DNA of 64,000 bases from Collinsella tanakaei. Lineage in GTDB: Bacteria > Actinomycetota > Coriobacteriia > Coriobacteriales > Coriobacteriaceae. The notes under the pieces were generated by a model. That model did not search any database, had not been told where the DNA came from, and was given only the letters and a program-made list of their open reading frames with translations. Positions 29,151 to 33,615 of the stretch are shown piece by piece. How positions within the stretch are numbered: the stretch's first letter is position 1; every line of letters starts with the position of its first letter. The DNA is taken from contig NZ_JACJMB010000003.1 in NCBI RefSeq assembly GCF_016902615.1, positions 1 to 64,000 of the forward strand, in the 5' to 3' direction. Made by a program: the position numbers and the translations under genes.

Positions 29151-30068
29151 ATGCGCTGCCTCATCATCCATAACCCAGCATCCGGACCCAGCTCCGATGA
29201 GATCTTCGCGTTCGCCCGCGCGCTCGCGACGGGCGGCGATGAGATCTGCATGCGCTTCATCGGGTCGGGCATGGAGGCGGCCGACGCCACCGCCGACGCG
29301 CGCGCCTTCGACCGCATCGTCGTCTCCGGCGGCGACGGCACCGTAAGCAACGTCCTCGACTGCCTGCGCGACACCCACGTCCCCATCCTCGTGTTCCCCT
29401 CCGGCACGGCGAACCTGTTCTTCAACAACATCGGCAACGCTCCCGAGGCGGCGGCGCTCGCGGCCGCCTGCCGGCGCGGCAAGACGAAAAGCGTCGACAT
29501 GGGCGAGCTGTTCTGGAGAGACGAGGCGGGCGACATCCAGCGCCACGGCTTCACCATCATCGCCGGCTCGGGCTTCGACGCCGCCATCATGCAGAAGGCG
29601 GCGCCGAGCAAAAACGAGATCGGCGAGATCGCCTACGCGCTCGCGGCCCTTGCCACCCCCGAGCCCCCGGTGGCGCACTTCACGATCGAGCACGACGGCG
29701 TCGTCGACGAGTACGACGGCATCGGCTGCATGGTGGGAAACACCGCCGTCATCCAAAACGACATCAACCTGTTTCCCGACTGCCGCATGGACGACGGCCT
29801 CATCGACGTCACGATCATCCGGCCCGCAAAGACCGTCGAGCTGCTACCGACGCTGCTCGCCGGCGTGTTCGACCCCGCGGGCAAGGGGCTCGGCCGCCCG
29901 CAGTTCACGATGTTCCAGACGCGCGAGGTGAGGATCACGGCGTCCCCGTCGCTCGGCATGCAGTTCGATGGCGAGCTCATCCCCAACAACAGCGGCGTGT
30001 TCGGCGCCCGCGTGCTGCCGAACTGCCTCGACCTCATCATCGACGACTTCTCGAAGCTGAACGGCTGA
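29151..30068 (+). CDS. Diacylglycerol kinase-type lipid kinase
   Basis: 305 residues of the DagK/YegS/sphingosine-kinase family. IIHNPASGP at the start and SGGDGTVSNVL (GGDGT at 60-64) form the ATP site. FPSGTANLFFNNIG and the C-terminal MQFDGELI complete the fold. It probably recycles diacylglycerol to phosphatidic acid at the membrane, but the lipid substrate is not shown by sequence. The ATG at 29151 has only a weak ribosome site. A T-less hairpin (30099-30122) follows. Confidence 0.9.
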   Translation: MRCLIIHNPASGPSSDEIFAFARALATGGDEICMRFIGSGMEAADATADARAFDRIVVSGGDGTVSNVLDCLRDTHVPILVFPSGTANLFFNNIGNAPEAAALAAACRRGKTKSVDMGELFWRDEAGDIQRHGFTIIAGSGFDAAIMQKAAPSKNEIGEIAYALAALATPEPPVAHFTIEHDGVVDEYDGIGCMVGNTAVIQNDINLFPDCRMDDGLIDVTIIRPAKTVELLPTLLAGVFDPAGKGLGRPQFTMFQTREVRITASPSLGMQFDGELIPNNSGVFGARVLPNCLDLIIDDFSKLNG

Positions 30069-30155: not shown

Positions 30156-30185
30156 TTCCCAGTTGGAACTCTGCTGTGCTATAGT
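30156..30185 (+). promoter_or_regulatory. Promoter of the trp leader and ECF operon
   Basis: TATAGT (30180-30185) preceded by TGC forms an extended -10. A weak -35, TTCCCA (30156-30161), lies 18 bases upstream. The leader ATG is 58 bases downstream. Confidence 0.55.
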
Positions 30186-30242
30186 GCCCCCAACGCGGCA
30201 CACGCTGCACGATCTTCGATTATCCAGAAAGGAGCCACCAGC

Positions 30243-30311
30243 ATGAAGAACCTCTCCTCCGCTCTCAACAACTGGTGGTGGCGTGATGTGGATCCGGTCG
30301 GTCGACGGTGA
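30243..30311 (+). CDS. trpL: Tryptophan leader peptide (22 residues)
   Basis: ATG at 30243, TGA at 30309-30311, AAAGGAG at 30228-30234. The peptide contains three consecutive tryptophan codons (NNWWWRD, codons 11-13) and is followed by a hairpin and terminator before the ECF genes. This is the layout of ribosome-mediated trp attenuation: scarce charged tRNA-Trp stalls the ribosome at TGG TGG TGG, changes RNA folding and lets polymerase pass. NWWW-type trp leaders are known in other actinobacteria upstream of trp genes; here the target is a transporter. Confidence 0.88.
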   Translation: MKNLSSALNNWWWRDVDPVGRR

Positions 30312-30373
30312 GTCCCTCACGCTCGTCTTTTCGTAGCGCGCATAGGCCTCCGGTCTGACCGGGGGCCTTTTTT
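30294..30373 (+). promoter_or_regulatory. Trp attenuator: candidate antiterminator and terminator
   Basis: The terminator is AGGCCTCCGG (30344-30353) with CCGGGGGCCT (30359-30368), one T-G wobble, then a run of T to 30373. CCGGTC (30294-30299), just after the Trp codons, is complementary to GACCGG (30357-30362) in the terminator and is a candidate antiterminator arm. A GTGAG/CTCAC hairpin (30309-30321) overlaps the leader stop codon. The terminator is certain; the alternative fold is proposed by eye. Confidence 0.75.
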
Positions 30374-30467
30374 CGTGCTCGACCGAACCGCCCGCATCAC
30401 GCGCCTCCGCCTCGCCCCATCCCCCAACGACGCACCTTTTCCATCTCGCGAAAGAAGGATGATCACC

Positions 30468-31037
30468 ATGACCCAGACCACCACCTCCCAGGCGCGCACC
30501 GTCACGACCTCCGACCACGGCAAGCTCGACATCAAGGCCCTCGTTCTGCTCGCGGTGCTGCTCGCCGCCGGCTTCATCCTGAACATGTTCCTCGGCAAGG
30601 CCATCGGCGCCATGTCCGCCGGCATGATCAACCCCGAGTTCATCATCTCCGCCTTCTGCCTCACCATCCTCGTCGTACGCCCGAACGCGATCCAGGCGCT
30701 CATCATCGGCCTCATCTCCGCTGCGGTCATCCAGCTCACCACGAGCCTGCCCGGCGCCGACTTTGTCGCCGAGGGCGTCGCCGCCGTCCTCATGGCCCTC
30801 ATCGTCAACGCCGGCATGAAGACCAGCGCCCGCGCCATCATCCCCACGCTCGGCACCTTCGTGACCACGTTCGTCTCCGGCTTCATCTTCATGGTCATCC
30901 GCATGGTCCTCATGCAGTTCGACATGGCCATCGCCGCCGCGATGCTGCCGGTCGTGGCCATCACCGCCGTGTTCAACGCCGTGCTCGTGGGCGCTCTCTA
31001 CGTGCCCATCAAGAAGGCCCTGAAGCTCAACGACTAG
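30468..31037 (+). CDS. trpP: ECF transporter S component, predicted tryptophan-specific
   Basis: A membrane-embedded substrate-binding subunit of 189 residues with five or six hydrophobic helices (LVLLAVLLAAGFILNMFLG onward). The gene is followed by the ECF ATPase and T-component genes, so it fits the S component of an energy-coupling-factor importer. It resembles TrpP-like tryptophan transporters. Specificity rests mainly on the tryptophan leader peptide upstream. I chose the ATG at 30468, with AAAGAAGG at good spacing, over the ATG at 30459, which lies on top of the ribosome site. Confidence 0.82.
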   Translation: MTQTTTSQARTVTTSDHGKLDIKALVLLAVLLAAGFILNMFLGKAIGAMSAGMINPEFIISAFCLTILVVRPNAIQALIIGLISAAVIQLTTSLPGADFVAEGVAAVLMALIVNAGMKTSARAIIPTLGTFVTTFVSGFIFMVIRMVLMQFDMAIAAAMLPVVAITAVFNAVLVGALYVPIKKALKLND

Positions 31038-31045
31038 CGCCCTTC

Positions 31046-31085
31046 CGCCCGCCCGAGCACAACCGCCCGGGCGGGCGTCTTCTTG
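31046..31085 (+). terminator. Intra-operon hairpin between the S component and ATPase genes
   Basis: CGCCCGCCCG (31046-31055) pairs with CGGGCGGGCG (31068-31077), followed by TCTTCTTG. It is probably a partial terminator or 3'-end stabiliser that lets the S component be made in excess over the shared energising module. Confidence 0.55.
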
Positions 31086-31118
31086 TCTTGCACCTCGACC
31101 TGTATCGGAAAGGCAACC

Positions 31119-32876
31119 ATGGCAGCAATCATCGAGATGGACGGCGTGTCGTTCTCATACGGCTCCGATGCCGCCCACGCCCTCGACAACGTCTCGCTCA
31201 CCGTGGAGGAAGGCGATTTCGTCGGCATCATAGGGCCGTCGGGCGCCGGCAAGTCGACGCTTGCCGCCTGCCTGTCGGGCGCCATCCCCCACCACTACAC
31301 CGGTGAGCTGTTCGGCAGCACACGCGTGGCGGGATATGACACCTGCGACGTGTCACTCACCGACATCTCGAGAACCGTCGGCTCGGTTGCCCAGGACATC
31401 GATGCGCAGATGGTCGCGTCGATCGTTGAGGACGAGATCCTGTTCGGCCTCGAGAACTTCGGCGTGCCCCACGACCAGATCGAGGGGCGCATCGCGCACA
31501 CGCTCGAGACGGTGGGCATCGCCGATCTGCGCCACCGCGAGATCGCCACGCTTTCGGGCGGCCAGAAGCAAAAGGTCGCCATCGCCGCCATCCTGGCGCT
31601 CGAGCCGCGCGTGCTCGTGCTCGACGAGCCCACCGCGGCCCTCGACCCGGTGAGCTCGAGCGTCGTGTTCGAGACGCTGTCCGACATCAACCGCCGTCTC
31701 GGCATCACCGTCATCGTCATCGAGCAGAAGGTCGCCCTGCTCTCCAGCCACTGCAGCCGCATCGTCGTCATGGACCGGGGGCGCATCGCGCTCACCGGCA
31801 CCCCGCACGAGGTCTTCGGCGCATCAGAGCGCCTGCGCGCCATCGGCGTCGACAGCCCGCGCACCGTGCGCATCTCGAACAGCCTCGCCGCCTGCGGCAT
31901 CGCACCCGACGCCACGCCCTGCCTGAACGTCGACGAGGCCTACCGGCTGATCGCCGGGCTCGTCAAAGACCTGCCGCACGCCGCCTCGACGCCGGCTGAC
32001 GCGCCCGCGCCCTCCCCCCATGTAAGCGCGCGCCCGCACGCCGAAGGGGCCTCGCCCGTGCTCGAGCTGACCGGTGCGGGCTATAGCTACCCGAACGGCG
32101 GCGCCAGCGTGACCGACCTCGCCATGTGCGTGTACCCCGGCGAGCTCGTGGGCATCGTCGGGCAGAACGGCGCGGGCAAGACCACGATCACCAAGCTGCT
32201 GAACGGCCTCATCAAGCCCGCGCGCGGCAGCGTCGTCGTGGCCGGGCTCGACACGCGCGAGACCCCGGTGTCGCGCATCGCCGCCCACGTGTCGACGCTC
32301 TTCCAGAACCCCGATCGCCAAATCTGCAAGAACACGGTGCTCGACGAGGTCGCCTTCGGCCTCGAGCTCACCGGCGTCGACTCGGCCTCCGCGCGCGAGA
32401 GCGCCCGCGACGTCATCGAGCGCTTCGGGCTGCCCGCCACCGAGGCGCCGTTCTCGCTGTCGCGCGGCCAGCGCCAGATGGTGGCACTCGCCGGCGTCGT
32501 CGTCATGGAGCCCGAGATCGTGCTGCTCGACGAGCCCACGAGCGGCCTCGATTACCGAGAGTGCATGACCGTCATGGAGACGGTGCGCGACATGGCCGAC
32601 CACGGGTGCGCCGTCGTGATGGTCTGCCACGACATGGAGGTCGTGAGCGACTTCGCCGAGCGCATCGTCGTCATGGCGAACGGCCGCATCCTCGACCGCG
32701 GCCCGGCGCGAGACCTGTTCGCCGACGCCGCCCTCATGGACGAGGCGAGCGTCACGCCGCCGCAGGTCATCGAGCTCGCCGCACGCCTTGCCCGCGACGT
32801 CTCGCCCGCCTTCGCCGGCATCACCGAGGTCAGCGATATCGTCCGTACCGTGAAGGAGCTGATGGGCCGTGCTTAA
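31119..32876 (+). CDS. ECF transporter ATPase, fused A and A' domains
   Basis: The energising subunit, with two ABC ATPase domains in one chain of 585 residues. Domain 1 has Walker A GPSGAGKST (39-47), signature LSGGQKQKVAIAA and Walker B VLVLDEPTAALDP. Domain 2 has GQNGAGKTT (from about 348), the signature variant LSRGQRQMVALAG and IVLLDEPTSGLD. Most ECF systems encode the two on separate genes. A Pro/Ala-rich linker (about 290-310) joins them. The ATG at 31119 has GGAAAGG upstream. The stop overlaps the T-component start by 8 bases. Confidence 0.92.
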   Translation: MAAIIEMDGVSFSYGSDAAHALDNVSLTVEEGDFVGIIGPSGAGKSTLAACLSGAIPHHYTGELFGSTRVAGYDTCDVSLTDISRTVGSVAQDIDAQMVASIVEDEILFGLENFGVPHDQIEGRIAHTLETVGIADLRHREIATLSGGQKQKVAIAAILALEPRVLVLDEPTAALDPVSSSVVFETLSDINRRLGITVIVIEQKVALLSSHCSRIVVMDRGRIALTGTPHEVFGASERLRAIGVDSPRTVRISNSLAACGIAPDATPCLNVDEAYRLIAGLVKDLPHAASTPADAPAPSPHVSARPHAEGASPVLELTGAGYSYPNGGASVTDLAMCVYPGELVGIVGQNGAGKTTITKLLNGLIKPARGSVVVAGLDTRETPVSRIAAHVSTLFQNPDRQICKNTVLDEVAFGLELTGVDSASARESARDVIERFGLPATEAPFSLSRGQRQMVALAGVVVMEPEIVLLDEPTSGLDYRECMTVMETVRDMADHGCAVVMVCHDMEVVSDFAERIVVMANGRILDRGPARDLFADAALMDEASVTPPQVIELAARLARDVSPAFAGITEVSDIVRTVKELMGRA

Positions 32877-33615
32877 CGTCATCGATTACGTCCCCGGCGA
32901 CACCCTGCTGCATCGCCTGAACCCCGTCACGAAGCTCGCGCTCGCCGCGGCGATCGTGGCCGCGACGTTTCTGGCCGACAGCTACCCGGCGCTCATCGCC
33001 CTGCTGGCGCTCACCCTGGCGCTCGCCGCGTACGCCGGCGTGTTCGGACGCCTCGCGCGCCTGCTGAAAGTCCTCGTGCCCATCGCGCTCATCATGCTTG
33101 TGCTCCAGACCGCCTTCACGCGCAGCGGCACCCCGCTTATCGGCTTCGTGACCGACGAGGGCCTCATCACGGGCGGCAAGGCCTGCCTGCGCCTGCTCGG
33201 CGTCGCGCTGCCGCTCGTCCTCATGCTCATGGTCACGAAGCTGAACGACCTGGCGAACGCATGCGTGGAGAAGCTGCACATCCCCTACCGCTACGCGTTC
33301 ACGTTCAGCACCGCCCTGCGCTTCGTTCCGGTCTTCTCGCAGGAGATGAACGCCATCATGGAGGCGCAGACCGCCCGCGGCGTGGAGTACGACACGCGCA
33401 ACCCCTTCAAGAAGCTCAAGCTCATGCTGCCGCTGTGCGTGCCCCTGCTCATCTCCAGCGTGAGCAAGACCGACGCCTGCGCCCTCGCCGCCGAGCAGCG
33501 CGGCTTCTATCTGCGCACGCGCGAGAGCTGCTATAGACGCTATCCCTTCGCCGCCCGCGACGCCGTGGCCTTCGCGCTTGCCGTGGCGCTCATCGTCGGC
33601 GGCATCCTGCTGTAA
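32869..33615 (+). CDS. ecfT: ECF transporter T component
   Basis: The transmembrane coupling subunit of 248 residues with four to six helices. Coupling-helix motifs AQTARG and AAEQRG (the A-x-R-G type) contact the two ATPase domains. Translation starts at GTG (32869) inside the end of the ATPase gene, an 8-base overlap. A strong terminator closes the operon. The clustered S, A-A' and T genes suggest a dedicated (group I) ECF transporter. Confidence 0.92.
   Translation: MLNVIDYVPGDTLLHRLNPVTKLALAAAIVAATFLADSYPALIALLALTLALAAYAGVFGRLARLLKVLVPIALIMLVLQTAFTRSGTPLIGFVTDEGLITGGKACLRLLGVALPLVLMLMVTKLNDLANACVEKLHIPYRYAFTFSTALRFVPVFSQEMNAIMEAQTARGVEYDTRNPFKKLKLMLPLCVPLLISSVSKTDACALAAEQRGFYLRTRESCYRRYPFAARDAVAFALAVALIVGGILL

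Follow-up and report, generated by a model that had tools for sequence, protein, structure and literature searches.

We found a candidate ribosome-mediated transcription attenuator within a 64,000-nt stretch of the Collinsella tanakaei genome (assembly GCF_016902615.1, contig NZ_JACJMB010000003.1, positions 1 to 64,000; hereafter, the window). We put the probability at about 0.9 that this element senses charged tRNATrp and controls the downstream genes for an importer of the energy-coupling factor (ECF) type, which has a TrpP-like substrate-binding component and most likely carries tryptophan. Leader-peptide trp attenuation of this ECF operon had been proposed in an initial annotation made from the sequence alone, and the proposal is supported by the conserved Trp codons, pairing region and terminator and by covariation between leader and terminator.

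Leader peptide gene, terminator and alternative pairings

The leader open reading frame (ORF), MKNLSSALNNWWWRDVDPVGRR, runs over 22 codons from an ATG start to a TGA stop (30243..30311, forward strand, like all features described here). It is preceded by a Shine-Dalgarno sequence, AGGAG, at 30230..30234 and contains three consecutive Trp codons (TGG) at 30273..30281, the putative sensor codons. The initial annotation had described the same 22-codon leader, TGG run and ribosome site. A short ORF that has a ribosome site and a run of regulatory codons is, as judged from the sequence, what a leader-peptide trp attenuator would look like. While TGGTGGTGG occurs 29 times in the 2.45-Mb genome, a covariance model of the motif, for which the window sequence was among the 38 used, has a single match there, at the leader site (E 4.6e-22). 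A predicted promoter at 30156..30185 consists of a weak -35 element (TTCCCA), an 18-nt spacer and a TG-extended -10 element (TATAGT), with a score of 9/12 in our consensus scan against 0.1 expected in shuffles. A TGCTATAGT-like -10 element is found again 5' of the leader in most of the relatives displayed, and AAAGGAG is kept 5' of most leaders.

An intrinsic terminator lies between the leader and the first structural gene (30344..30374), with an 11-bp stem at 30344-30368, a 3-nt loop (CTG) and a U-tract (TTTTTT), so that the clear rho-independent terminator noted before is indeed present. Four terminator-like sites were found, compared to 0.4 expected in shuffles. Region 1 (GCGTGA, 30281..30286) overlaps the last Trp codon and the Arg and Asp codons after it, and pairs with region 2 (TCACGC, 30317..30322), directly 3' of the stop codon. 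The 5' strand of the antiterminator, CCGGTCGGTC (30294..30303), is conserved, and in the predicted minimum free energy structure under a stalled ribosome it pairs with the 3' strand, CTGACCGG, inside the terminator (30355-30362). The complementarity between CCGGTC and GACCGG pointed out in the initial annotation exists, at 30294 and 30357. Its register is also predicted in the window, where it extends to 8 bp (30294-30301 with 30355-30362), but the register kept in relatives involves YYGGUC at 30298-30303, four bases downstream.

Conservation and covariation

The S component is present in 62/65 genomes of the family Coriobacteriaceae. All 61 family loci with upstream sequence have a leader with a run of Trp codons, an intrinsic terminator and a complementary leader segment. 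These leaders read WWW throughout, save for WW in L032 and W-A-W in L067, and a terminator lies 3' of every leader examined. The stretch that opens with the first Trp codon and closes with the stop codon measures 39 nt in nearly all relatives. Upstream of the Trp run, the leaders differ in length and sequence, whereas the run itself and the RNA 3' of it are preserved; in L104 and L105, the stop codon is shifted upstream and the RNA after it is retained. The leader Gly codon is GGT in 103/105 cases, compared to 12% GGT in the S genes, indicating that the RNA is constrained beyond the peptide; the codon before it ends in a pyrimidine without exception.

In the Atopobiaceae (Olsenella, Thermophilibacter and others), the attenuator is found at most loci and is missing at L108 and L116. 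Conservation of the Trp codons, pairing region and terminator thus extends across the Coriobacteriaceae and most Atopobiaceae, which answers the alignment proposed as a check of the first reading. The Eggerthellaceae S components are mostly 33-43% identical and usually lack a WWW leader (exceptions, L077, L133 and L134); a WWW leader is also found at L148, from another family. Most of the TrpP-like S components of Eggerthellaceae (L121-L150) have neither a WWW leader nor an Rfam element close by. L077 (genome G243), from a Slackia-type member of the Eggerthellaceae, has a complete attenuator and an S component with 73-74% identity. A similar S component exists in Slackia isoflavoniconvertens, and L185 is also Slackia-type with a Collinsella-like S component (73-74% identical). 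The Collinsella-like S components of L077, L185 and S. isoflavoniconvertens suggest horizontal transfer of the importer, in L077 together with its attenuator.

The covariance model, built on 38 of the loci it found, has matches in 58/58 family genomes at E <=2.1e-9 and in 158/272 genomes of the order at E <=0.05. With a poor RNAalifold structure (12 pairs), the model relies mostly on sequence. Outside the order, it gave two weak matches in other Actinomycetota, neither with a Trp-codon run followed by a T-run.

Covariation, which had been named as a further check, links leader and terminator. At each position, leader YYGGUC and terminator GACCGG are paired in 84-89 of the 89 distinct sequences, and slid registers fail. 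A C before GACC is never seen together with a leader A after GGUC (Fisher p = 0.0097, ignoring relatedness). The variable pair of the region 1:2 helix occurs as U-A, C-G and U-G, with two-sided change in 3/5 counted pairs. Among 63 sequences below 90% identity, the terminator, the region 1:2 helix and the antiterminator scored better with their own than with swapped partners in 5000/5000 permutations, and a fourth helix, in which the region after the stop codon pairs with the segment preceding the terminator, did so in 4975/5000. For an inner antiterminator helix involving the 5' arm of the terminator, the difference between own and swapped partners was not significant (468/5000). The elements, their conservation and these covarying, mutually exclusive pairings are direct results of the computation, as are the competing folds described below.

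Two further observations concern the same RNA. The leader ribosome site (30230-30242, GGAGCCACCAG) can pair with the Trp codons (30272-30282, CUGGUGGUGGC) in predicted ribosome-free folds, in which the Shine-Dalgarno sequence adjoins the bases paired to the Trp codons; Atopobiaceae ribosome sites read GGAGCGCCAC and occur with GUGGCGC, an apparently compensatory change. A second conserved motif, GCATCACGCGCCTCCGC, lies at about 30394-30411 between the terminator and the S gene, follows the strict pattern in 41/61 family loci and is complementary to region 1 (CGTGATGC in relatives).

Predicted folds and proposed mechanism

In folds of the growing window transcript with a ribosome on the Trp codons, the antiterminator (30294-30301 with 30355-30362) is predicted up to roughly position 30366. 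When the ribosome is put at the stop codon instead, the terminator is predicted to fold without an antiterminator competitor, and with no ribosome, the region 1:2 helix and the terminator are predicted to form. Across relatives, the antiterminator appears in 88/88 predicted folds of the stalled state and the terminator in 86/88 of the at-stop state. The criterion of at least 6 pairs for the stalled folds is lax, as 152/264 shuffled leaders pass it; the mean pair count is a better measure, with 16.7 leader-terminator pairs compared to 7.2 with shuffled leaders.

We infer from these results how stalling, termination and read-through would proceed in the cell. When Trp is scarce, the leader ribosome would halt on the three Trp codons and cover region 1. 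The downstream segment, CCGGUCGGUC, would then be free to pair with terminator CUGACCGG during transcription, possibly with some added pairing to the terminator 5' arm as in the predicted folds, and RNA polymerase would enter the importer genes. With ample Trp, the ribosome would reach the stop codon and cover the antiterminator segment, and the terminator would form. In an untranslated leader, region 1 would pair with region 2 and the terminator would likewise form.

Importer genes and the likely substrate

The operon encodes a TrpP-like S component, the substrate-binding membrane protein (30468..31037; AlphaFold model and a sub-threshold PF17099 match), a fused ECF ATPase comprising EcfA and EcfA' (31119..32876; TIGR04520, 442.6 bits, and TIGR04521, 415.2 bits, both above cut-off) and the T component EcfT (32869..33615; PF02361, CbiQ, E 5.7e-29; TIGR02454 below cut-off), whose gene overlaps the ATPase gene by 8 nt. 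An S component, two ECF ATPases and a T component encoded together make up an ECF transporter, and the profile matches confirm the gene order read earlier from the sequence. The nearest named S components, from C. tanakaei and C. ihumii, are 87-89% identical. A second S component, about 50% identical, follows the first in tandem in L071-L076, L078, L079, L082, L088, L090 and others; the window contains just one.

PF17099, whose namesake is TrpP of Bacillus subtilis, is matched by 16/21 aligned relatives of the S component (best E 5.2e-13), and the Eggerthellaceae relative L121 (41% identity) passes its threshold with 47.1 bits. The AlphaFold model of the window S component (predicted local distance difference test score, 82) convincingly matches only ECF S components (ThiT, RibU, FolT and others), with Foldseek probabilities of 0.91-1.0 for ranks 1-10, though with E-values >0.01. 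On sequence and model together, the protein most likely has the ECF S fold and is TrpP-like, with tryptophan as its likely cargo. We set aside as support the like-named TrpP of Corynebacterium glutamicum, which was reported not to transport Trp and compared with SdpI (PMC11995493).

We found neither a trpB match above cut-off nor a homologue of trpC, encoding indole-3-glycerol phosphate synthase, in the window's genome. Of the 58 family genomes, G027 alone has a homologue of either; other trp genes were not searched. Since trpB and trpC homologues were not found, the family is probably auxotrophic for Trp.

Related leaders before TrpB-like and symporter genes

Weaker covariance-model matches led to further gene classes. 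At 13 loci (L253-L264 and L267), WWW-leader attenuators lie 5' of genes for TrpB-like pyridoxal phosphate enzymes. Two examples tested score above cut-off with TIGR01415 (553-562 bits) and NF009057 (656-661 bits), and the closest solved relatives of one of the proteins are named tryptophan synthase beta chains 1 and 2. We looked upstream of 20 more TrpB-like genes and found a WWW leader with a terminator at four (L288, L290, L291 and L292) and a WW leader at one (L286). TrpB-like genes with WWW leaders occur in genomes of the Coriobacteriaceae, Atopobiaceae and Eggerthellaceae. In Slackia-like genomes (L269, L270 and L272), WWW-leader attenuators precede symporter genes, and the two tested belong to PF00209 (SNF), the NSS family.

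The attenuators of these two classes differ in sequence from the ECF class and keep the leader-terminator complementarity; for example, UCGGAUUAUCG is complementary to CGAUAAUCCGA in L290, and GGUUUACCGA to UCGGUAAACC in L288. Their own partners reach -24.6 kcal/mol, compared to -19.8 kcal/mol for swapped ones (0/10,000 permutations), which is the strongest covariation evidence in our analysis. Stand-alone TrpB homologues can salvage indole, according to a statement on Thermococcus kodakarensis cited in PMC11085991, and the Trp transporter TnaT belongs to the NSS family (PMC10707687). This leader class is thereby tied to Trp, and by analogy these particular TrpB-like and NSS genes may serve indole salvage and Trp transport.

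De novo trp genes do not seem to share such attenuators, as no WWW leader was seen in 12 trpB regions, in a scan that demanded a T-run as well as a Shine-Dalgarno-like match and had no positive control. It appears rather likely that closely similar WWW leaders form a Coriobacteriia-specific Trp attenuation regulon for salvage instead of synthesis, covering the ECF TrpP-like importer, a TrpB-like indole-to-Trp enzyme and an NSS symporter, and that they move from gene to gene and also, along with the importer, from one family to another (Slackia).

Alternative explanations

Several points weigh against the attenuator and its assignment to Trp import. In the family alone, the region 1:2 helix is not significant in the permutation test (527/5000), the antiterminator of the ECF class varies one-sidedly, and the permutation tests leave relatedness in. 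The folds assume both the ribosome footprints and where the ribosome stalls. The complete terminator is predicted to be more stable than the antiterminator, and therefore the switch must be kinetic, as in known trp attenuators. Finally, the window S component reaches only E 7e-4 and 19.8 bits with PF17099, under the gathering score of 27.2, and is for this reason called TrpP-like and not a member of the family.

The leader peptide might act as a sensor of the TnaC type, with the nascent peptide in the exit tunnel detecting free L-Trp while the ribosome is at the stop codon, and with Trp as the inducer of the operon. The peptide does resemble TnaC in having its Trp residues 9-11 residues from the end, an Asp four residues past the first Trp in many Coriobacteriaceae, and Gly-Arg/Gln kept near the end. 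However, the peptide is variable downstream of the Trp run (RDANTVGRR, RNFSSLGRW and NNLSFSGQR; NNGMRPLSD or NREH in TrpB-like leaders), stop codons shift, as in L104 and L105, and what is kept are the Trp codons and the RNA complementarity. As induction of an importer by Trp also makes little sense in an auxotroph, we regard such a sensor as very improbable. It would be equally surprising if the leader were a conserved upstream ORF of no regulatory role and the terminator merely ended an upstream transcript: an unrelated ORF does end at 30068, but a promoter-like site separates it from the leader, the Trp-to-stop spacing is fixed, the alternative pairings covary, and such leaders recur before TrpB-like and NSS genes. 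Neither a T-box nor another known riboswitch was found, as no Rfam family (RF00230 included) matches in the window or in 36 further S-component loci; one T-box lies in the trpB region of an Atopobiaceae genome (L156).

A less distant alternative accepts an ordinary Trp attenuator and changes the cargo, with the S component importing indole, a Trp derivative or another aromatic compound within a Trp-starvation response. The sub-threshold TrpP score and the tandem paralogous S components of several genomes, which indicate that the family can diversify, fit this idea. On the other hand, TrpP of B. subtilis imports Trp (PMC13170310) and is counted among ECF S proteins (PMC11487621), most relatives of the S component match its family, as described above, and hosts without trpB and trpC homologues depend on imported Trp or indole. 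We consider a non-Trp cargo unlikely and infer Trp import under attenuation control. The initial annotation had called attenuation the best evidence for Trp as the substrate; this was a fair judgement, and attenuation is no longer the sole evidence, being joined by the TrpP similarity, the absence of trpB and trpC and the related leaders elsewhere.

Implications and comparison with known systems

Leader-peptide attenuation is best known from biosynthetic operons and would act here on an ECF transporter. The element gives a testable substrate for an otherwise uncharacterised ECF importer found throughout Collinsella and in many related gut Coriobacteriia. These apparently Trp-auxotrophic bacteria are suggested to sense Trp via tRNA charging and to respond with more uptake and perhaps with indole salvage, a point relevant to how gut bacteria compete for tryptophan and indole.

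The Escherichia coli trp leader has the same parts, namely Trp codons, a region 1:2 hairpin and an antiterminator competing with a terminator, with the ribosome position deciding between them. It belongs to another lineage and has another target, and its antiterminator engages chiefly the 5' arm of the terminator, whereas here the main antiterminator strand reaches the terminator loop and 3' arm. The trp attenuators of Corynebacterium and Streptomyces (Seliverstov et al. 2005, PMC1262725) are likewise from Actinomycetota, with two or three consecutive Trp codons, a GC-rich terminator with a U-tract and complementary triples common to antiterminator and terminator. They precede trp biosynthesis operons and trpS, unlike the present element, which precedes an ECF importer in genomes without trpB and trpC homologues. 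The closest transporter precedent that we found is the set of His leader-peptide attenuators of Firmicutes on his operons and/or hisXYZ (PMC9413887), where attenuation of an amino-acid ATP-binding cassette (ABC) transporter is predicted; these concern histidine, Firmicutes and a classical ABC importer instead of an ECF one. TrpP of B. subtilis, a characterised Trp importer among ECF S proteins, is controlled translationally by the TRAP protein, without a leader peptide (PMC13170310, PMC11487621). We found no published report of this attenuator in the open-licence literature. Thus, the mechanism is of a known kind, ribosome-mediated attenuation, while its target, its lineage and the likely salvage regulon appear to be new.

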